From: Bacilli bacterium
GTDB taxonomy: Bacteria; Bacillota_I; Bacilli_A; RFN20; CAG-826
Assembly: GCA_017450325.1 (NCBI GenBank)
Contig: JAFSVB010000003.1
Span: 1-34,761 of the forward strand
DNA length: 34,761 nucleotides
Direction of reading: 5' to 3'
In this document: positions 2,170 to 13,203 of the stretch, one piece after another
Numbering within the stretch: position 1 is the stretch's first letter
Layout: each line of letters opens with the position of its first letter
Translations under genes and position numbers: made by a program
Notes under the pieces: generated by a model
Databases searched by the model: none
What the model saw: the letters and a program-made list of their open reading frames with translations, nothing else
Told to the model about the DNA's origin: nothing

Positions 2170-3561
2170 ATGAAAAAACTAATGATGCCCATGCTCAGCG
2201 CGCTCTTGCTCACCCTCGCTTCCTGTGGCGGAGGTTCTTCGTCGAAGATCGTGCTGAAAATCGGTTTCTGGCCCGAGCCGAATGACACCGCGGACGTCGC
2301 GATGTACGAGACTTGGGCGAAGCGCTTCATGGCGGACAACCCGCAATACGAGATTCAGGGCATGCCCTATACCTATTCCACGGAGACGGTAGGGCAGAAG
2401 TACGCCGTCGGCGCGCTTCCGGACGTCTGGCAGACCTGGTTCACCGAGCCGGGCAAGTTGATGGAGAAGAACATCATCCGCTCCATCGACGCGCAGGTGA
2501 AGGCGACTGGCTGGGACAAGGCCATGGACGAGGCGATGAAGGAAGAACTTACCTTTCATGGGGAGCTCTATGGCATCCCTCGCGATGGCTATGGCCTAGG
2601 GCTTCTTATGAACAAGCGCATCCTCGGCGAGAACGGCTTCCTGCCTGAAATCAATGGCAAATACTCTATATATAATGAAGACGGCTCTCCCGCCTATCCG
2701 ACTTCCTTCGCGGAAATCCAAGCCATTTCCGAAGAGCTCGTCGAACTCGACAATGTCCGCGGCTTCTTGATGTATTCCGCGAACAAAAACGGCGGATGGG
2801 TCTTCTCCAACATGGCTTGGAACTATGGCGCGACTTTGGAGAAGAAAGAAGGCGACCGCTATAAGGCGAACCTCAATGATCCCGCGGCCGTCCAGGCCCT
2901 AGAATGGGTCAAGGAAATGCGCGTGAACGGCTTGCTTCAGGAGGCGGTCTCTTCCGTTTATAACGACTGGTATTCCCATATCGGCGAGCGCGTGGCGTTC
3001 GCGGTGGTGGGCAGCGACGTCCTCCAAAACGCCAAGCTTCTAGGCGAAGTGAGCATGGACGACCTCGCCTTTGTCCCGATGCCTACGGGCGATGGCACCC
3101 ATCATTATTCCCTTTATGGCGGCACGCCGTTTGTCTTCACCAAGGGCGTCTCGGACGCGAAGGTCGAGGGCATCCTCAAGTTCTTCTCCTATATCGGACG
3201 TTCGCCCGAGAAGAGCGAGAACAACCTCCTTGCGAAGAAGGAAGGCTACGAAGTCGCCAAGCGCAAGAACCAGCCGATCCTACCGACGATTATGCCTTGG
3301 AAGGATGGAGAGTTCTTGCAAGAAGCCAAGAAGCTCGAAGCGCAATACATCAATGTGAACCTCCCCGATTACGCGCCTTTCTTCGACGCGATCGAGAGCA
3401 ACAAGCATCCCGAGGAACCCGCGTTAGCCCAAGAGATGTATGCTGCTTTAGACACGGCCATTCAAAGCGTCTTCACCTCGCTTGAGACCGCCAATTGCAG
3501 CGCGTTGCTCACGACGGCGAACACCACGCTGCAGAATAAACTCGACGAAAGCGCTCGGTAA
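2170..3561 (+). CDS. Sugar ABC transporter substrate-binding lipoprotein (family 1 SBP)
   Basis: This 463-residue protein is the extracellular binding component of a carbohydrate ABC importer. It has a short signal peptide ending in the lipobox LASC with the lipidated Cys at residue 19, then a Gly/Ser stretch and a family 1 solute-binding fold rich in Trp and Tyr. Segments such as GELYGIPRDGYG and the later SLYGGTPFVF are typical of MalE/UgpB-like sugar binders. The start is fixed by CGGAGG at 2156-2161, 8 nt before the ATG. It is followed after 6 nt by the first permease gene. The ligand cannot be read from the sequence; the GH65 enzymes downstream suggest a glucosyl oligosaccharide. Confidence 0.93.
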   Translation: MKKLMMPMLSALLLTLASCGGGSSSKIVLKIGFWPEPNDTADVAMYETWAKRFMADNPQYEIQGMPYTYSTETVGQKYAVGALPDVWQTWFTEPGKLMEKNIIRSIDAQVKATGWDKAMDEAMKEELTFHGELYGIPRDGYGLGLLMNKRILGENGFLPEINGKYSIYNEDGSPAYPTSFAEIQAISEELVELDNVRGFLMYSANKNGGWVFSNMAWNYGATLEKKEGDRYKANLNDPAAVQALEWVKEMRVNGLLQEAVSSVYNDWYSHIGERVAFAVVGSDVLQNAKLLGEVSMDDLAFVPMPTGDGTHHYSLYGGTPFVFTKGVSDAKVEGILKFFSYIGRSPEKSENNLLAKKEGYEVAKRKNQPILPTIMPWKDGEFLQEAKKLEAQYINVNLPDYAPFFDAIESNKHPEEPALAQEMYAALDTAIQSVFTSLETANCSALLTTANTTLQNKLDESAR

Positions 3562-3567
3562 AAAAAC

Positions 3568-4512
3568 ATGCTCCCTTCGCGGTCAAATCAGAAAAAGAAG
3601 CGGAATTTGCGGCGATATTCGGTGATTAAGCGCCATCTTTTCGGATGGGCGCTCATGATCGTTCCCCTCGCTCTTTTCGCGTTCTTCGTCTGGGTGCCGA
3701 TGGGGCGCAACTTCCTGCTTAGCTTCCAAAACAATTACTTCGATCAGGAGTTCGTGGGACTAGCGAACTTCGCCGCCATTTTCGCGGACAAGACGTTCTT
3801 AAAAGCGCTCGGAAACACGTTCTTATATATTCTCTTCTCTATTTTGATTGGCTATCTCGTGCCGGTATTCCTCGGCTTCTTGCTTTCGGAAGTCTTCCAT
3901 TTCGCGGGCATATTCCGTGTATTGCTCTACCTTCCCTGCATGATCAGCGGCATTGCGGTCGTGTTCCTCTTCTCGACGATGTATGGCGATTCCTCAACCG
4001 ATTTGTTCAACGCCATCGCCATCGCTATGGGCGGCGAATCTCACCCATGGAAAGGCTCGACCTCCCTCATCATCCCGTTAATCGTCTTAGCCATGACCTG
4101 GCGTGGCGCGGGGTCGACGGCGCTGATCTACCTTTCGTCTTTCCAATCGGTGGACGACTCGATGTACGAGGCCGCCCGCATGGATGGGGCGAGCCCTTGG
4201 CAGCGCTTCATCCGCATCACCGCTCCAAGCCTCAAGGCAACGCTCATCACCTTGTTCGTCTTGCAAATCATCTCGGTGTTCCAGGTGTTCTACGAGCCCC
4301 TCGTCATCGGGCCAAAAGGCGGGCCGCTAGACAGCTCTATGTCTTTGCTGCTTCTAAGCTATCTCTACGCCTTCGAGGATTTCGAGCACGGCCGAAGCGC
4401 GGCGGTAGCGATGGTCTTGGTTTTGATCATCGCGTTATTCACCCTGGCGTATCGATTGCTTCTTAAGGTCCTTTCGGGCGAGAAAATCATCAAGCGGAGG
4501 GGCAAACGATGA
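3568..4512 (+). CDS. Sugar ABC transporter permease, MalF/UgpA type
   Basis: This 314-residue inner-membrane permease has a basic N-terminus (many Lys/Arg in residues 1-24) and about six membrane segments, starting near residues 26-48. The cytoplasmic coupling motif for the ATPase is visible near residue 200 (YEAARMDGASPWQRF), matching the EAA-loop consensus of MalF-like subunits. It starts 6 nt after the binding-protein stop codon with no clear Shine-Dalgarno sequence, so translation is probably coupled. Its stop overlaps the next permease start in an ATGA. It should form a heterodimer with that neighbour. Confidence 0.93.
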   Translation: MLPSRSNQKKKRNLRRYSVIKRHLFGWALMIVPLALFAFFVWVPMGRNFLLSFQNNYFDQEFVGLANFAAIFADKTFLKALGNTFLYILFSILIGYLVPVFLGFLLSEVFHFAGIFRVLLYLPCMISGIAVVFLFSTMYGDSSTDLFNAIAIAMGGESHPWKGSTSLIIPLIVLAMTWRGAGSTALIYLSSFQSVDDSMYEAARMDGASPWQRFIRITAPSLKATLITLFVLQIISVFQVFYEPLVIGPKGGPLDSSMSLLLLSYLYAFEDFEHGRSAAVAMVLVLIIALFTLAYRLLLKVLSGEKIIKRRGKR

Positions 4513-5429
4513 AGACCCGTCGCATCTTCCCGCGCCTGAAGGACAAACGCGGAGGCTTCCTCAATTTCGCCGATTACCGCAAGGCATCGAACAAGGTGGC
4601 CTACGGCTTCATCGTCGTCTTCTTGCTCTTATTCTCCTTCGTCGCGGTGTTCCCAATCGTCTTCCTCTTCGCCTCCTCGATGAAAAGCGTCTCGGAAATC
4701 ACCGGCAATACCTATACCTTCTGGCCGCAGCAGTGGGACTTTGGCAAGATCGGGGCACTTTGGAGCCGCTTCGACTTCGGTCGTTACTATCTCAACACGC
4801 TGGTATACGTCGCGGGAGCGGTGGTGTGCGCGGTGCTTTTCAATAGCCTGCTCGCCTATGCGGTCGCGGTGGTGAAGCCCTTTGGCTATAAAGTCATTAA
4901 TGTCCTCGTCTTCCTCGGCTACATGGTGCCGACGATCCTCAACATCTTCCCGCTTTTGCAGGAAATCCGCGCCTTCGGTTTCCTCGACCCGGACCACCAA
5001 AGCTATCTGACGTTCCTGCCCTTGTGGCTTGGCTTTGGCGCGAATGCCTATTACTACATGCTCTTCCGCGACTATTTCGCAAGGCTTCCCAAGAGCCTCG
5101 TCGAGGCGGCTTCGATGGATGGGGCGAGCCAACTCCGCGTCTTTACCCGCGTGGTTCTTCCCTTGTCGCGACCCATCATCGGCATCGTCGCCATCTTCGC
5201 GATGACCGCTTCCTATAGCGATTTCCTGCTTCCTTATTGCGTCCTTCAAAGCTCGAACCTGCAGACGGTGGTCGTGGGCATCTACAACATCTCGAACATC
5301 AATCCGCCTCTCCAGATGCCGGATTTCCTCTTATTAATCCTTCTATCCGTCATTCCCCAAATCGTCATCTTCCTGATTTTCCAGCGCCAGATCATGAACG
5401 TCGGCGCCGGCAAAGGGAGCAAGGAGTAG
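4509..5429 (+). CDS. Sugar ABC transporter permease, MalG/UgpE type
   Basis: This 306-residue protein is the second permease of the importer. It has a first membrane segment near residues 35-58, about six segments in total, and an EAA loop near residue 198 (VEAASMDGASQLRVF) followed by a conserved LP. Start and preceding stop share ATGA at 4509-4512, showing tight co-expression. The gene ends 4 nt before the first GH65 gene, whose Shine-Dalgarno AAGGAG overlaps this gene's 3' end. Paired with the upstream permease and energised by the ATPase half of the fusion protein further down, it would import the oligosaccharide used by the phosphorylases. Confidence 0.93.
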   Translation: MKTRRIFPRLKDKRGGFLNFADYRKASNKVAYGFIVVFLLLFSFVAVFPIVFLFASSMKSVSEITGNTYTFWPQQWDFGKIGALWSRFDFGRYYLNTLVYVAGAVVCAVLFNSLLAYAVAVVKPFGYKVINVLVFLGYMVPTILNIFPLLQEIRAFGFLDPDHQSYLTFLPLWLGFGANAYYYMLFRDYFARLPKSLVEAASMDGASQLRVFTRVVLPLSRPIIGIVAIFAMTASYSDFLLPYCVLQSSNLQTVVVGIYNISNINPPLQMPDFLLLILLSVIPQIVIFLIFQRQIMNVGAGKGSKE

Positions 5430-5433
5430 CATT

Positions 5434-7680
5434 ATGGCCAAAACCGCGGAACGTTATCTTGAAATCGACCCGTATCGCCTCATCGAAAAGGGCTTCCATA
5501 AGGAAAAGAACATGGTCTCCGAATCCTTGTTCAGCCTGGGGAACGAATATAGTGGGGTGCGCGGCTTCTTTGAGGAAGGCTCTTCCCTCCCTTCGTTGAT
5601 CGGCACTTACTATAACGGCATTTACGAATACGCCTTAGAAGATACCCCAAGCGCTTATAAAGGCATCGTCAAGCGGACGCATTTCACGATCAATTCCACT
5701 AACTACCTCAAGGCGGAAATCGTCATCGACGGCGAAAAGCTCGACCTTGGGAAGGCGGAAATCGAGGATTTCCTGCGCGTTTTGGACATGCGCGATGGCT
5801 TGCTGGAGCGTTCCTTCATCCTGAAAGCGAATGAGAAACGCGTGAAGGTATGCTTCCGCCGCCTCCTTTCCATGACCCGCCCGCACATCGCCTACCAATC
5901 CATCTCCTTCTTCAGCGACCATCCCGTCCATATCGAGCTATCCCTGAACCTCGATGGTAGCGTCCTGCATTGGGGAAAACATAACTTCTACGAGGAAGGC
6001 TTCGCGGGCGAAGACGAGCTTTATCTCTATACCCCGACGACCAACCAATCCCTATACACGGCGGAGAGAATCGCTTCGCCTTGTGGCAAGGCGAGGTGGG
6101 GCAAAAAAGAGAAAGAAGTCTTCTCTCTCTACGAATTCGATGCCGCCCCCAACCAGGAATATCTCTTTGAGCGTTTCGTTTCCAATATCGCTGCAAAAAC
6201 GAAAGAACCCATGGAAATCTCCGCAGAAACGGCACGAATTGATCTCGATGACGCCGTGAGGCTCTGCTTTGAGGGATTAAGGAAGGAAAACGCCTCCTTC
6301 TTCGCCTCCCATTACGCGAAGTCGGATATCGTCATCGATGGCGATGCCTCCGACCAGCAGGGGATCCGTTTCTGCATCTTCCAGATGCTCAGCGCCTACC
6401 ATGGCCTAGAAAGCGACAACAACATCGGGGCGAAGGGCCTTACGGGCGAAGCCTATTCCGGCCATGCCTTCTGGGACTCGGAGACGTATTGCCTCCCTTA
6501 TTACCTCTTCAATGACCAGACGTCCGCGAAGAACTTGCTGAAGTTCCGCTTTGCGACGTTGGACGAGGCGAGGGCCCGCGCGAAGGACTTAGACTGCGAA
6601 GGCGCTTGCTTCCCCATCGCGACCCGCAATGGCAAAGAAGGATGCACCTTATGGCAGCACGCCTCCACCCAGCTCCAGCCCACGACCGCCGTGGCGTACG
6701 CCATCGAGCATTACATGACCCTCTATGACGACGAGGAGTTCTTGAAGGACTATGGGGCGGAGATGCTCGGCGAGATCGCGAAGTTCCTGCTTTCTCGCGG
6801 CGACTACAATCCCGCTCATACCCGCTTTGGCTATTATGGCGTGATGGGGCCGGACGAATTCCAGCTCATGGTCGCCCACAATGCCTACACCAATTTCATG
6901 GGCAAGAAGAGCATGGAATACGCATTAAAAGTGCTCCGCGACCCGCGCTTTGGCACAAAAGATCTCCTGGCCCGCCTGAACCTCGACGAGGCTAAACTCG
7001 CGGAATTGGAGGAAGCCGCGGCGAAGATGTACCTGCCTTATGACCCGAAGACGAAGCTTTTCGAGCAGCATCAAGGCTATTACGATTTGCCGCATATCGA
7101 CGTCGACAAGATCCCGCTGGAGGATTTCCCCCTCTATGCCCATTGGACCTATGACCGCATCTACCGCAACGACATGATCAAGCAGCCGGACGTCTTGATG
7201 TTCCTCTTCCTCTATAGCCAGGACTTCGACGAGCAGACCATCCAAGCCAACTACGAGTTCTATGAGCCGCGCTGCATCCACGAGTCTTCCTTGTCGCCCT
7301 CCATCCATTCCATCCTCGCGGCCCAATTAGGCAAAAAGCAGGAGGCCTCGGATTTCTTTGGCTTTGCCACGCGCCTAGACCTCGATGACTATAACCGCAA
7401 CACGAGCGAAGGGCTCCACATGACCTCCATCGCCGCCGCATGGATGAATATCGTCTATGGTTTCTTGGGCTTACGCAGCGAGCGGAAGATCCTGAAGATC
7501 CAGCCGACCCTCCCCACCCGCTGGACCCATTACGGCGTCAAGCTGACCTACCATGGCCATCCCGTTCGCTTCGACGTCTATGAAGACCGCGTCGATATCG
7601 ATGTGGAAGGCGGGAGCATCGACTTGCTTTATCATGGGGAAGTGGTGCGCGTATCATCGAAGAGGAGTTTGCCTTTATGA
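5434..7680 (+). CDS. Glycoside hydrolase family 65 phosphorylase, copy 1
   Basis: This 748-residue cytoplasmic enzyme belongs to GH65, whose members cleave alpha-glucosides with phosphate and inversion, giving beta-glucose 1-phosphate. Layout follows the family: N-terminal beta-sandwich (about 1-300), (alpha/alpha)6 barrel (about 320-690), small C-terminal domain. The general acid is probably Glu475 in GPDEF; the phosphate-binding stretch is SLSPSIHS near residue 618. The sequence after GPDEF reads QLMVAHNAYTN, unlike the HEHVxNNAYTN form I associate with maltose or kojibiose phosphorylases, so the substrate may be a different glucoside (for example alpha-1,3- or rhamnose-linked). The stop overlaps the next gene in ATGA. 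Family is secure; the linkage is not. Confidence 0.92.
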   Translation: MAKTAERYLEIDPYRLIEKGFHKEKNMVSESLFSLGNEYSGVRGFFEEGSSLPSLIGTYYNGIYEYALEDTPSAYKGIVKRTHFTINSTNYLKAEIVIDGEKLDLGKAEIEDFLRVLDMRDGLLERSFILKANEKRVKVCFRRLLSMTRPHIAYQSISFFSDHPVHIELSLNLDGSVLHWGKHNFYEEGFAGEDELYLYTPTTNQSLYTAERIASPCGKARWGKKEKEVFSLYEFDAAPNQEYLFERFVSNIAAKTKEPMEISAETARIDLDDAVRLCFEGLRKENASFFASHYAKSDIVIDGDASDQQGIRFCIFQMLSAYHGLESDNNIGAKGLTGEAYSGHAFWDSETYCLPYYLFNDQTSAKNLLKFRFATLDEARARAKDLDCEGACFPIATRNGKEGCTLWQHASTQLQPTTAVAYAIEHYMTLYDDEEFLKDYGAEMLGEIAKFLLSRGDYNPAHTRFGYYGVMGPDEFQLMVAHNAYTNFMGKKSMEYALKVLRDPRFGTKDLLARLNLDEAKLAELEEAAAKMYLPYDPKTKLFEQHQGYYDLPHIDVDKIPLEDFPLYAHWTYDRIYRNDMIKQPDVLMFLFLYSQDFDEQTIQANYEFYEPRCIHESSLSPSIHSILAAQLGKKQEASDFFGFATRLDLDDYNRNTSEGLHMTSIAAAWMNIVYGFLGLRSERKILKIQPTLPTRWTHYGVKLTYHGHPVRFDVYEDRVDIDVEGGSIDLLYHGEVVRVSSKRSLPL

Positions 7681-9758
7681 GGCGCGTCCTCACCAAAAAC
7701 GGATACGACAGAGAAGACGTCATTCAAGACGGCAACCGTTTTCTTTTAGGCAACGGCCATCTTGGCTATCGCGGGACGCTGGAAGAGCATGATAAAGACG
7801 ACCTCACCGGCTTCATCCTCGCGGGCGTCTATGACCAGCATGAGGACGATTGGAGAGAAAACCTCTCCCTTCCGAACCCACTCCATTTTCGCGTATATCA
7901 AGATGATGAGGAAATCTCTCTCCGCACGAAAGCGCCTTTGTCCCACGAGGTTCAACTCGACATCGAGAAGGCCTTATTCCACCGTCATACCGAATTCGAG
8001 CCTTTCGCCCTTTCGTCCATGCGCTTGCTTAGCCATGACGACGACTCCTTGCTTCTAGAAGAGATAACCTTGCGCGCGAATAAGGGCGGGACCTTCCGAC
8101 TCGAGTATGGGCTCGACCGCGACATTGCGGATATGCATGGCCCCCATTTCCGGGAAACCTGGGTGGAAATCGGCGCGAACTGCATCCTTTTTCATGGAAA
8201 GACCAACGAGGGCAAAACGCTGCATGTGCGCGCTTATTATGAGGGGATTGAGGGCGAATATGACGGCAAAACCCGCTTCTTTTCCAAAACGTTAACCCTA
8301 AAAGAAGGAGAGGAAACCTCCTTGCGCATCATCGCGAAAGTCTGTGAGGAAGATGAATCAACCGCCTTCCGGAATAGCGGCTTTGAAGATCTGAAGTCCC
8401 GCTCCATCCAAGCCTTTCAAAAGAAGCTCTCCGCGATTGCGGTGGAGATCGATGGCGACGAGGAGCTCGACTTCGAGATGGCCTATTCCATCTACCACGC
8501 CTTGATCCTTGGGGACGAGAAGCGCGTCCGCTCCATCGCGGCCCGCGGAGTTTCCGGCCAAACCTATAAAGGCGCCATTTTCTGGGACACCGAGATCTTC
8601 CTCCTTCCTTTTTATGTCCTAGCGAATCCCATCATCGCGAGGAACCTCTTACTCTACCGCATCAACACCTTGGAAGGGGCGTTAACGAAAGCGAAATCCC
8701 TCGGATTTGAGGGCGCTTATTACGCGTGGGAATCCCAAGATAGCGGGCTAGAGGCCTGCCGTGCGGACAATGTGACCGACCCGGTGACGGGGGAGACGGT
8801 CATCACCTATTTCGGGACGAAGCAAATCCATATCTCCGCGGACATCGCCTATGCCTTCGATCGCTATATCGAAGCCACGGGGGACGCGTCCATCTTAGAA
8901 GAAGGCGGAACGCGGGTCCTTCTGGAAATCGCTCGGTTCTTCCTTAACTATGCGCGCGCCGATGAAGATGGCGTCTACCACATCGACGACGTCATCGGCC
9001 CCGACGAATACCATGAGCGCATCGATGACGAAGCGTTCACGCTCGGGATGGCACGCAGGGTCCAGCAGACCATCTTGCGGCGCGTCGACCCTGAAAAACT
9101 CGACGAGGAATCTCGTGGTTTGTACCAGAGAATAATCTCCGCAAAATGGGCCTCGCCCAAAGAAAAAGAGGGGATTTACGAAGAATTCGATGGGTATTTC
9201 GCCTTAGAAGACGTCGACGTGGCCATGCTGAAGAAGCGCGTGAAGAACCCGCAGGACTATTGGGGTGGCAAAAACGGCATCGCGACCAAGACGACCGTCA
9301 TCAAGCAAGCCGACGTCATCGCCTTGCTAGCCTTATGCCCCGAGGACTACGACCTGCAGACGGTGCGCAAGAACTATATTTACTATTTCTCCCGCACGGA
9401 GCATGGTAGCAGCCTAAGCGCCTCGATGCATTCGCTTCTTGCGGTGCGACTCGGGAGGTTAGAGGAGGCCTATGACTTCCTTCGCGCCTCCTCCGGGATC
9501 GATCTTCGCGGCGCGAATAAGCTCTATGCGGGCGGCGTCTATATCGGGGGCACGCACCCCGCCGCCAACGCGGGCGCTTACCTCGGGCTCATCTATGGGT
9601 TCCTCGGCTTCCGGCAAAAGCAGGGGAAGGTGACCTTAGACGTCCATCTCCCATCCCATATTCGGAAAGTGCGGTTCTATTTCATGAATCAAGGAACCCG
9701 TTACGAAGGGCTCGCCTACCAAGACGGGCATTACGAAATCAAGGAGGCAAAGCAATGA
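7677..9758 (+). CDS. Glycoside hydrolase family 65 phosphorylase, copy 2
   Basis: A second GH65 enzyme of 693 residues, shorter than copy 1 and clearly not a recent duplicate. The probable general acid is Glu444 in VIGPDEYHE, and the phosphate loop is HGSSLSASMHS near residues 575-585. FWDTEIFLLPF and QIHISADIAYAF are typical barrel segments of the family. The region around residues 358-378 (AWESQDSGLEACRADN, then a DPVTGE loop) differs from copy 1 and should shape another acceptor site. Start and stop both lie in ATGA overlaps with the neighbours. Two different phosphorylases in one operon suggest sequential attack on an oligosaccharide with two linkage types, or two alternative substrates; this is inference. 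Confidence 0.92.
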   Translation: MRRVLTKNGYDREDVIQDGNRFLLGNGHLGYRGTLEEHDKDDLTGFILAGVYDQHEDDWRENLSLPNPLHFRVYQDDEEISLRTKAPLSHEVQLDIEKALFHRHTEFEPFALSSMRLLSHDDDSLLLEEITLRANKGGTFRLEYGLDRDIADMHGPHFRETWVEIGANCILFHGKTNEGKTLHVRAYYEGIEGEYDGKTRFFSKTLTLKEGEETSLRIIAKVCEEDESTAFRNSGFEDLKSRSIQAFQKKLSAIAVEIDGDEELDFEMAYSIYHALILGDEKRVRSIAARGVSGQTYKGAIFWDTEIFLLPFYVLANPIIARNLLLYRINTLEGALTKAKSLGFEGAYYAWESQDSGLEACRADNVTDPVTGETVITYFGTKQIHISADIAYAFDRYIEATGDASILEEGGTRVLLEIARFFLNYARADEDGVYHIDDVIGPDEYHERIDDEAFTLGMARRVQQTILRRVDPEKLDEESRGLYQRIISAKWASPKEKEGIYEEFDGYFALEDVDVAMLKKRVKNPQDYWGGKNGIATKTTVIKQADVIALLALCPEDYDLQTVRKNYIYYFSRTEHGSSLSASMHSLLAVRLGRLEEAYDFLRASSGIDLRGANKLYAGGVYIGGTHPAANAGAYLGLIYGFLGFRQKQGKVTLDVHLPSHIRKVRFYFMNQGTRYEGLAYQDGHYEIKEAKQ

Positions 9759-11542
9759 TCAAAGGAGCGATATTCGATCTCGATGGGGTGCTCGTGTTCA
9801 CCGACCGTCTCCATTACGCCGCCTGGAAGAAGCTCGCGGACGAAGAAGGAATCCCCTTCAATGAGGAGGATAATCTCCGCCTGCGTGGAGTCTCGCGCAT
9901 GGAGTCGCTGGAGATCATCCTCGAGAAAGCCACCAAGACTTATACAGACGAAGAAAAGGAAGCTTTGGCCAAGCGCAAGAACGACTATTACGTCGCCTCG
10001 CTTTCCTCGCTGACCGAAAAAGACGTCAAAGACGAAGACCGCCGCACTCTGAAGGCGCTTCGCGACCAAGGCATCCTCCTCGCGGTCGGCTCTTCCTCCA
10101 AAAACACGCGCGCCATTATGGGCCGAGTGGGGTTGTTTTCCTATTTCGACGCCATCGCCGACGGCACCATGATCCATCGCAGCAAACCCGACCCCGAAGT
10201 CTTCCTCCTCGCCGCGAAAAAACTCTCGCTTCCCCCTGAGGAATGCATCGTCATCGAGGACGCCGAGGCGGGCATCGACGCGGCCAATGCGGGCTGCTTT
10301 GATTCCGTCGGCATCGGTCCCGCCGCCTCGCTGCAGAAAGCCCGTTACTCCATTTCCTCTCTTTCCGATTTATTGAAATTGCTCGAGGATTCGCGCAAGC
10401 CCGTGCTCCGCCTCGAGCACGTCAAGAAGGTCTACCCCAACGGCTTTGAGGCGGTCCACGATTTCTCCTTGGACGTGCAACAGGAGGAGTTCGTCGTCTT
10501 CGTCGGTCCCTCCGGATGCGGCAAATCCACGGTCCTACGCATGATCGCAGGCCTCGAGGACGTCACCGAAGGCTCGATTTATTTGGGCGAAGAGGACATC
10601 ACCGATAAGGAATCCAAGGACCGCAACATCGCCATGGTCTTCCAAAACTACGCCCTTTACCCGCATTTGACGGTCGCGAAGAACATCGCCTTTCCCCTCG
10701 ACCTCGAACGGGTGCCCTGGAAGCATTTCTTCGATTTGAAATACCGCAAGCAGCGGAAGCAGCGCATCCGCGAGGCCGTCGAATCCGCCGCCGAGCGCAT
10801 CGGCTTAAGCGATTACCTCAACGTGAAGCCTGAGAACCTTTCCGGTGGCCAGCGCCAGCGCGTCGCCTTAGGCCGCGCGATCGTCCGCAACCCCCGCGTC
10901 TTCCTCCTCGACGAGCCCTTATCGAACCTCGACGCGAAGATGCGCGTCTCCATGCGCGCGGAGATCAGCAAGCTCCACGATAAGCTGCGCACCCTCTTCG
11001 TCTACGTCACCCACGACCAAGTCGAGGCCATGACCATGGGCACGAAGATCGTCATCATGAAGGATGGCTACATCCAGCAAGTCGGTAGCCCCGAGGATGT
11101 CTTCCTCAACCCCGTCAACCGCTTCGTGGCCGGATTCATCGGCACCCCGCAGATGAACTTCCTTCGCGCGGAGATCCATCGCCGCGGAACGATATATACC
11201 GCGACCATCGCCGGCAAGGAACTGACCCTTCCACCAGAGAGAATGAAGCGCTTCAACGTGAAATACCTGGACAGAACCGTCACCCTCGGCGTGCGCCCGA
11301 AAGCCGTGAAGGTGCAGGGCGACCTCGGCTATGACGAGCAGGGGTTCGCGGGCAATATCTCTTTGTTCGAGCAGCTTGGCGAGGACACGCTCGTCTATGT
11401 TTCCTTCCCAGAACTTGAAGGCGACCTCATCGTCTCCACCTCGGGGCTAGGCCGTTTCTTTAAGGGCCAAAGCGTTGGACTATCGCTCGATTTAAGCGGC
11501 GTCTGTCTCTTCGATGAGCAGACTGGGGACTCGCTCCTATGA
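9755..11542 (+). CDS. Fusion: beta-phosphoglucomutase + sugar ABC transporter ATPase (MsmX/UgpC type)
   Basis: One uninterrupted 595-residue frame carries two enzymes. Residues 1 to about 212 are a HAD-family beta-phosphoglucomutase: DLDG near residues 8-11 with the nucleophile Asp, GSSSKN, KPDPEVF, and the metal-binding EDAEAG. It would turn beta-glucose 1-phosphate from the GH65 enzymes into glucose 6-phosphate. From about 217 on is a complete import ATPase: Walker A GPSGCGKST at 251-259, signature LSGGQ at 362-366, Walker B Asp386/Glu387, H-loop His420, and a TOBE-like regulatory end from about 460. The linker is only a few residues. A GTG at 10403 with GAGGA 13 nt upstream could allow a separate ATPase to start internally. 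The ATPase would serve the two permeases. Domains are certain; one polypeptide in vivo is likely. Confidence 0.93.
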   Translation: MIKGAIFDLDGVLVFTDRLHYAAWKKLADEEGIPFNEEDNLRLRGVSRMESLEIILEKATKTYTDEEKEALAKRKNDYYVASLSSLTEKDVKDEDRRTLKALRDQGILLAVGSSSKNTRAIMGRVGLFSYFDAIADGTMIHRSKPDPEVFLLAAKKLSLPPEECIVIEDAEAGIDAANAGCFDSVGIGPAASLQKARYSISSLSDLLKLLEDSRKPVLRLEHVKKVYPNGFEAVHDFSLDVQQEEFVVFVGPSGCGKSTVLRMIAGLEDVTEGSIYLGEEDITDKESKDRNIAMVFQNYALYPHLTVAKNIAFPLDLERVPWKHFFDLKYRKQRKQRIREAVESAAERIGLSDYLNVKPENLSGGQRQRVALGRAIVRNPRVFLLDEPLSNLDAKMRVSMRAEISKLHDKLRTLFVYVTHDQVEAMTMGTKIVIMKDGYIQQVGSPEDVFLNPVNRFVAGFIGTPQMNFLRAEIHRRGTIYTATIAGKELTLPPERMKRFNVKYLDRTVTLGVRPKAVKVQGDLGYDEQGFAGNISLFEQLGEDTLVYVSFPELEGDLIVSTSGLGRFFKGQSVGLSLDLSGVCLFDEQTGDSLL

Positions 11543-13203
11543 GGAGGAAGTTCCTCGTCCTATTGGCCTTGTCGTTGCTATCTTGCCAAGCACCTCAAGG
11601 CTCTCCCACAAGCTCCTCAAACCCCCAAAGCGAGGAGGGTGTTTCCTCGTCGGTTTCTGCTAGAGAGCCTTCCTCCCAAACCCCAATCAGTGCAGAGTCT
11701 AGCCAGGAATCCATCGAGAAAGACGAGCAGGGGTTCATCGTCCTTCCACAGGGGTATTTGACCCACGAAGAGCGTCCTCATTCTTTTGGCGCGGACGTGC
11801 AAGAAAAAGAAAAGAGCGGGAATTTGCGGCTATTTTTAGGGGATGAGCCGGTTCCTATCTATAACGTCTACGTCAACCAGACCCATCGATGGGACCCAGA
11901 GGCGAAAGGCAGGACCCTCGCGGGCGTGGCAAGCGTTTCCGTTTCCACCGGGGCAATTTTTACCCTTGCCTGCACATGGGTGATTGAAGGGCGATGCAAG
12001 ATTTCCCCGAGCAACAAGAACGTGAGCCTATCCTTTGACGAGGCTCACCGAACCGTGCGCTTCGAGCTAAGCGAGCCCGGGGATTATCTGGTGGAGTTTC
12101 GCGGCGGGCGCGCCCTCCATCTTTTCGTCCATGAATACGAGGAGGCATCTCCTTATGACGAGAGCAATTCCATCTATTTTGGGCCAGGCGTCCATAACAA
12201 GAACAATGACTCTCGGCTTCGCGACTCGACCCTAAGGATTTCCTCTGGCGCGACCGTCTACCTCGCGGAAGGGGCCTTCGTGGAGGCGGCCTTCGTCTCG
12301 ACGTCGGCCTCAGGCTTCCGAATTCTCGGTAAAGGGTTCGTCGATGGTTCCGTCTTCGACCGCAACGCAAGTATGGGTTCCCGTTTTATCCCGTTTGATT
12401 TCTCCGATTGCCGCGATTTCCTGCTGGGGGACTTCGCCGTCCTCGACCCGGCGGGTTGGTGCTTCAATTTGTATTTCTGCGCCGATTTCAAACTAAATCG
12501 CGTTAAGGTGATCTCCAGCCGCTCCAATGGCGATGGCATCTCTTTGCAATCCTGCAAAAGGGTGGTGGTGGATGGCTGCTTCCTCCGCACCTACGACGAC
12601 TCGATCGTCGTCAAGAACTATCCGCGCTGGAACAACCGCTCCATCGAAGGGGAGACGGAGGACATCGAGGTGAAGAACTGCCTCGTCTACACCGACCTCG
12701 CCCAATGCCTCGAAGTCGGCTATGAGACGGTCGGGGAGAAGATGGAGCGCATCCATTTCCACGATATCGTCATCCTCGCCGCGACCCATAAGGCCGCCCT
12801 TTCCATCCATAACGCGAACAACGCCCACCTCAAGGACGTCCGCTTTGAGGACATCGTCATCGAGAACCTGCAGACGGGGCAAGGGGATGGGACGCCGCTA
12901 CTTTTGGAATTCACCGTCGCCCATTCCCCGACTTGGTCCGACCAGCATAAAGTCACGGGCCTTGGGGACATCGATGGGGTCCTCGTGAAGAACATCCGCG
13001 TCCTCTCTGGACTAAAGACGCCGCGCATCGCCATCCAAGGCAGCATGGAAACGCGCTCTGGTTATCCAGCCGCACCGCATAAAATCACCAATGTAAGCCT
13101 AGAGAATATCCTTTTGCAGGGCGAGAGGCTTACGAGCGAATATCCCGCTTTTTCCTTGGCTTATGCGGAGGGGATCACCCTGGATGGCGTGACGATTTCC
13201 TAG
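11539..13203 (+). CDS. GH28/GH49-like parallel beta-helix lipoprotein, probable glycan hydrolase
   Basis: This 554-residue protein has a lipobox (LLSC, Cys16), then a Ser/Thr/Pro/Gln-rich linker to about residue 65, then a beta-sandwich and right-handed beta-helix domain. YFGPGVH near residue 215 resembles the entry of GH49/GH28-type folds. Candidate catalytic acids are Asp332 in SNGDGIS and Asp353-Asp354 in YDDS; their 21-residue spacing matches the NxD and DD motifs of GH28 polygalacturonases. The GH28 histidine motif GHG is not seen; the matching region reads LEVGYE. The substrate is therefore open: an alpha-glucan (dextranase-like) would fit the downstream phosphorylases, pectin less so. 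It begins in an ATGA overlap with the fusion gene and ends the operon before a hairpin terminator. Confidence 0.8.
   Translation: MRRKFLVLLALSLLSCQAPQGSPTSSSNPQSEEGVSSSVSAREPSSQTPISAESSQESIEKDEQGFIVLPQGYLTHEERPHSFGADVQEKEKSGNLRLFLGDEPVPIYNVYVNQTHRWDPEAKGRTLAGVASVSVSTGAIFTLACTWVIEGRCKISPSNKNVSLSFDEAHRTVRFELSEPGDYLVEFRGGRALHLFVHEYEEASPYDESNSIYFGPGVHNKNNDSRLRDSTLRISSGATVYLAEGAFVEAAFVSTSASGFRILGKGFVDGSVFDRNASMGSRFIPFDFSDCRDFLLGDFAVLDPAGWCFNLYFCADFKLNRVKVISSRSNGDGISLQSCKRVVVDGCFLRTYDDSIVVKNYPRWNNRSIEGETEDIEVKNCLVYTDLAQCLEVGYETVGEKMERIHFHDIVILAATHKAALSIHNANNAHLKDVRFEDIVIENLQTGQGDGTPLLLEFTVAHSPTWSDQHKVTGLGDIDGVLVKNIRVLSGLKTPRIAIQGSMETRSGYPAAPHKITNVSLENILLQGERLTSEYPAFSLAYAEGITLDGVTIS

Follow-up and report, generated by a model that had tools for sequence, protein, structure and literature searches.

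Fusion of a beta-phosphoglucomutase with an ABC importer ATPase in a bacterial sugar uptake operon

The operon and its fusion gene

The window analysed here, a stretch of 34,761 nucleotides from a Bacilli bacterium (contig JAFSVB010000003.1), carries an operon whose features, as described below, all lie on the + strand. Its first frame is truncated by the window start (2-2101) and is followed by the gene of a lipoprotein (2170-3561), a putative substrate-binding protein to judge from the permease genes that follow it and from its lipobox-like N-terminus. Even with E values of up to 1 allowed, neither product matches a Pfam family, and homologues of both recur across these operons, that of the truncated protein in most of them. 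Two permeases of PF00528 come next, one UgpA-like (3568-4512; EAA loop YEAARMDG) and one UgpE-like (4509-5429; EAA loop VEAASMDG), and then two GH65 genes for predicted alpha-glucoside phosphorylases, GH65a (5434-7680), for which the nearest solved chain is 6w0p (named kojibiose phosphorylase), and GH65b (7677-9758), for which it is 4ktp. GH65 phosphorylases are marked by a general acid Glu and by Ser-Ser, His and Lys residues that bind phosphate (PMC8626586). GH65a keeps GPDEF, ESSLSP, GLH and AKGLTGE, with the His and Lys columns assigned by alignment, while GH65b keeps GPDEY, GSSLS and GTH and shares with 4ktp an Arg in place of the Lys, again in columns set by alignment. By their general acid, Ser-Ser and His residues both proteins are predicted to be phosphorylases and not hydrolases.

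The fusion gene (9755-11542) lies directly behind GH65b and is followed by the gene of a GH28-like lipoprotein (11539-13203; PF00295), which is the location, between the GH65 genes and a surface hydrolase, given by the first-pass annotation. The start codon of the fusion gene and the stop codon of GH65b share an ATGA (9755-9758), and the fusion's own stop is overlapped by the ATG of the GH28-like gene (ATGA, 11539-11542). A ribosome-binding sequence, GGAGG, is found at 9743-9747, and a purine-rich site is present 5' of the ATG in 16 of 16 fused copies. The order substrate-binding protein, permease, permease, GH65a, GH65b, fusion, GH28-like is conserved among the fused copies with long enough surroundings. 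No close mutase other than the fusion was found in the window genome, which does encode a separate MsmX-like ATPase (L002).

The frame of the fusion gene runs through 595 codons with no internal stop. It had been annotated as a mutase at residues 1-212 and an ATPase at residues 217-595 with intact motifs, and these coordinates and domain limits proved right. In the mutase half (9755-10390), residues 1-188 match TIGR01990, the beta-phosphoglucomutase model of the HAD superfamily, at 226.4 bits, passing its equivalog cut-off of 189.4, and alignment to solved mutases (4gib, 3nas, 1lvh) extends the homology to residue 212. The window protein has the motifs FDLDGV, RGVSR, GSSSKN, SKPDPE and EDA; the DxD aspartates, nucleophile and acid/base, are thus kept, as are the motifs with Ser, Lys and Glu-Asp. 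The ATPase half (10403-11539) is of the MalK/MsmX type with an OB/TOBE regulatory part. It aligns over its whole length to the MalK, AlgS, SugC and MsmX ATPases, and structure comparison with MalK gives a Z of ~41, also over the whole length. PF00005 matches, PF17912 (OB_MalK) matches above cut-off, and TOBE_2 reaches 20.9 bits against a cut-off of 21. Walker A (GPSGCGKS), the Q-loop, LSGGQRQR, Walker B/D-loop and the H-loop are complete. The presence of both a full ABC ATPase and a C-terminal OB/TOBE part assigns this half to the CUT1 importer type (MalK/UgpC), with a score of 409.6 bits against NCBIfam NF008653 (UgpC) that lies below the cut-off of 432. Among the matches listed, by sequence or by structure, no single solved chain spans both halves, and the best 50 structural matches listed align with the ATPase half only. 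All motif patterns are matched in 14 of the 16 fused copies, with a few substitutions in G243 and G338.

The halves meet at residues 213-216 (10391-10402), a joint whose sequence differs from copy to copy. The only in-frame start here is a GTG at 10403, with no ribosome site. In none of the 16 fused copies does an in-frame start close to the joint have a ribosome-binding sequence ahead of it, and 7 of them lack a start codon there altogether. In an AlphaFold model (mean pLDDT 87) the last mutase helix spans residues 204-214 and the first ATPase strand begins at 218, indicating that the joint is short. The model was built on 16 sequences, just 3 of them covering the mutase half, and with a pTM of 0.63 it does not fix the relative placement of the halves. 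Both halves evolve under purifying selection: the closest pair of fused copies (G075/G068) has dN/dS values of 0.056 in the mutase half and 0.036 in the ATPase half, and more distant pairs, whose synonymous sites approach saturation, have values of 0.06-0.18.

Distribution and ancestry of the fusion

When 224 genomes of the window's family were searched for the mutase, 12 besides the window's proved to encode the full-length fusion (G018, G008, G027, G125, G075, G068, G205, G114, G034, G179, G033 and G092). Wider searches added G243, from another family of the same order, and G338 and G488, from two further families of the class. The full-length fusion is therefore present in at least 16 genomes, the window's and 15 others, in 11 genera and four families of one class, and the identity of the copies to the window protein declines to 54-57%. 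Every copy comes from a draft assembly, many of them metagenomic, and the carriers are some rumen- and gut-type bacteria. The proposal that two normally separate proteins are fused here is borne out by the 15 other genomes and by the selection on both halves. Outside the class, no fusion was found in a sample of 392 genomes from across the phylum, class members aside. The best matches of a plasmid search are separate adjacent genes and not the fusion. A viral origin was also considered, and was rejected when a pattern-based search of viral_contigs found no relative. The literature that we searched, with most subscription papers outside its reach, contained no description of a mutase/ABC ATPase fusion. 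The fusion of known parts is real and conserved, and it is apparently undescribed.

The fused ATPases share an insertion. In the window protein DLERVPWKHFFDLKYRKQRKQR (residues 316-337; 10700-10765) holds ~13 inserted residues in the helical subdomain. The distance from the Q-loop to the signature is 57-58 residues in 15 of the 16 fused copies and 79 in G243; in 33 of 35 unfused ATPases it is 44. A phylogenetic analysis that omitted the insertion columns and set the 16 fused ATPases against 33 unfused ones, taken from the window's family and other Bacillota, united the fused ATPases in a single clade (support 100/98). In the tree of the mutase half, fused and unfused copies are intermixed with weak support, and a single clade of fused mutases is not rejected (p-AU 0.095). 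We rejected several origins of the fusion, since this value keeps one mutase clade possible and the ATPase tree gives one clade. We infer that an ATPase gene arrived downstream of the mutase gene, that a single joining event made the fusion, and that the operon was afterwards passed on vertically or by transfer.

MsmX, an ATPase that serves as a multitask energiser, has been described by the signature residues D77, R104, E110 and K154, of which single ones are not decisive for multitask ability (PMC7658222). The position of D77 is Asn in 14 of the 16 fused copies, including the window's, and in the fused ATPases the insertion takes the place of the R104-E110 stretch; in the window protein K154 is in addition replaced by Arg. 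The window ATPase therefore lacks the MsmX-like multitask residues (D77, R104, E110, K154). The change at D77 and the replacement of R104-E110 fit a dedicated ATPase, with the proviso that single residues do not decide the matter. As a separate observation, many MalK/MsmX-type ATPases of the family have long C-terminal extensions (L153, L154, L155, L160-L165 and L167; frames of 579-859 aa), and no further Pfam match was found in the two that were scanned (L153 and L162).

Two relatives retain the ATPase and only part of the mutase. In G025 mutase residues 1-95 are gone and the remaining operon is not adjacent. In G163 a portion of GH65b stands, in frame, where the first two thirds of the mutase should be. 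The operon copy of G163 (L146:436-2637, L170:8353-11283) is ridden with deletions and joins the start of GH65b, the last third of the mutase and an intact ATPase in frame; both decay and misassembly are possible. Since both have lost much of the mutase but not the ATPase, the ATPase does not require the mutase, and the joined state may be neutral.

Proposed function and competing explanations

We think it probable that the protein is bifunctional, a dedicated importer ATPase tethered to a beta-phosphoglucomutase that acts on the beta-glucose 1-phosphate made by the GH65 enzymes. The conserved frame, the active-site motifs, the selection, the ATPase clade, the operon and the phosphorylase signatures support this reading. 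It is also favoured by the want of a second close mutase in the window genome, by the unfused relatives, whose fetched stretches show no MalK-type ATPase, and by the E. coli pair YcjT and YcjU. The C-terminal part would be the dedicated ATPase of an oligosaccharide importer encoded in the same operon, working as a dimer beneath the two permeases, as MalK does, and the N-terminal part would be an active beta-phosphoglucomutase. Once imported, the glucoside would meet the two GH65 phosphorylases in the cytoplasm; these would split it and release beta-glucose 1-phosphate, which the mutase would convert to glucose 6-phosphate. The first-pass annotation had likewise seen the fusion as joining import energy to the conversion of beta-glucose 1-phosphate, and its pathway logic agrees with the general acid and Ser-Ser/His phosphate-site residues kept by both GH65 proteins, for which this sugar phosphate is the product. 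The tethering follows from the single chain, and the joint of about four residues suggests that two mutase domains per assembled importer would lie at the inner membrane face. The fusion would in this way set the ratio of the two proteins and position the mutase where the sugar enters. We infer the activities, the assembly with the operon's permeases and any kinetic benefit. Points against this reading are that the separate MsmX-like ATPase L002 could serve the operon's permeases and that G025 and G163 retain the ATPase with most of the mutase gone.

A neutral fusion is a real possibility, although we consider it somewhat doubtful. An ATPase gene behind a mutase gene would have become joined to it by loss of the stop, the halves would work as if they were apart, and the link would persist without benefit because splitting it again requires a new stop, a new start and a ribosome site. 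The variable joint, the adjacent unfused genes that are the enterobacterial state, and the loss of much of the mutase half from G025 and G163 are all consistent with this. However, no split copy occurs in 16 genomes from four families, down to 54% identity. That no split is seen although these genomes often encode unfused ATPases is a weak argument, splitting being mechanistically hard. It is unlikely that the ATPase is an MsmX-like general energiser of several sugar importers, which would bring the mutase to many of them. MsmX is among its nearest solved relatives, and in G025 the ATPase is kept far from any recognised importer gene of the operon, but the change at D77 and the insertion in place of R104-E110 argue against such a role, the unfused comparison paralogues (14/16) include clear MsmX-like enzymes without the insertion, and the fusion gene is tied to one operon.

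Two further explanations concern whether the halves are made as one chain. That the chain is cut after translation, or that the ATPase is also made alone, seems very improbable to us: an in-frame GTG does stand exactly at the start of the ATPase, but an internal start at 10403 was rejected because it has no ribosome site and is not conserved. An assembly error joining two genes is scarcely conceivable. The window genome is a draft of 232 contigs, but 15 other assemblies have the same fusion, including the public contigs ONGB01000025.1 and CATKXV010000016.1, and the error was rejected on that ground.

The bifunctional reading can be taken further, to a motor subunit carrying a metabolic enzyme that consumes or senses the product of the imported sugar, with transport and first metabolism coupled physically and perhaps allosterically and the insertion acting as a contact or membrane-binding element. 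We hold this extension to be improbable, and regulation of transport by the mutase, like channelling of product, is speculative. The loss of mutase sequence in G025 and G163 argues against an obligatory gating role of the mutase. ABC importers and the enzymes that metabolise what they take up are usually considered separately. A conserved natural polypeptide combining importer ATPase and mutase offers a ready system in which to ask whether an attached catabolic enzyme alters flux or transport control, and natural controls exist in the operons with an unfused mutase and in the relatives without the mutase half.

Related and known systems

The ATPase half resembles MsmX (6yir) in fold and length, at ~47% identity, and differs from it in the fused mutase, the insertion in the helical subdomain and the changed D77. 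Within the family, the operons of G202, G207, G209, G199 and G218 encode the substrate-binding protein, permeases, GH65a, GH65b and mutase in the window's order, but their mutase stands alone; in G218 a GH28-like gene comes directly after it. No MalK-type ATPase was found near the stand-alone mutase in the fetched stretches of these five genomes, of which that of G209 stops ~1.5 kb beyond the mutase. These operons therefore presumably use an ATPase encoded elsewhere.

A second mutase fusion occurs in three genomes of the window's genus (G030, G024 and G031), in frames of 795-800 aa (L136:7399-9783 on the - strand, L137:9565-11964 on the + strand, also L030). As in the window, a mutase of the same family forms the N-terminus of a longer chain encoded in an operon for a sugar importer, but the partner is a GH127-like enzyme (PF07944) and not an ATPase. 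In the mutase tree the three group on a branch by themselves. Given the attached mutase, one may ask whether the GH127-like partner itself works as a phosphorylase. The MalK-type ATPase of the GH127-like operon (L136:14668-16524 on the - strand, L137:2850-4706 on the + strand) also carries an insertion between Q-loop and signature, ~220 residues long and located where the fused clade has its short one.

The enterobacterial ycj operon is like that of the window, with substrate-binding protein and two permeases (YcjN/O/P), GH65 (YcjT), mutase (YcjU) and ATPase (YcjV) in the same order. The E. coli proteins YcjT and YcjU are a kojibiose phosphorylase and a beta-phosphoglucomutase, respectively (PMC11543891). 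The ycj operon has one GH65 gene where the window has two, and it also contains dehydrogenases and an isomerase. The mutase YcjU and the ABC ATPase YcjV are encoded there by separate genes 10 bp apart, whereas in the window the two are fused.
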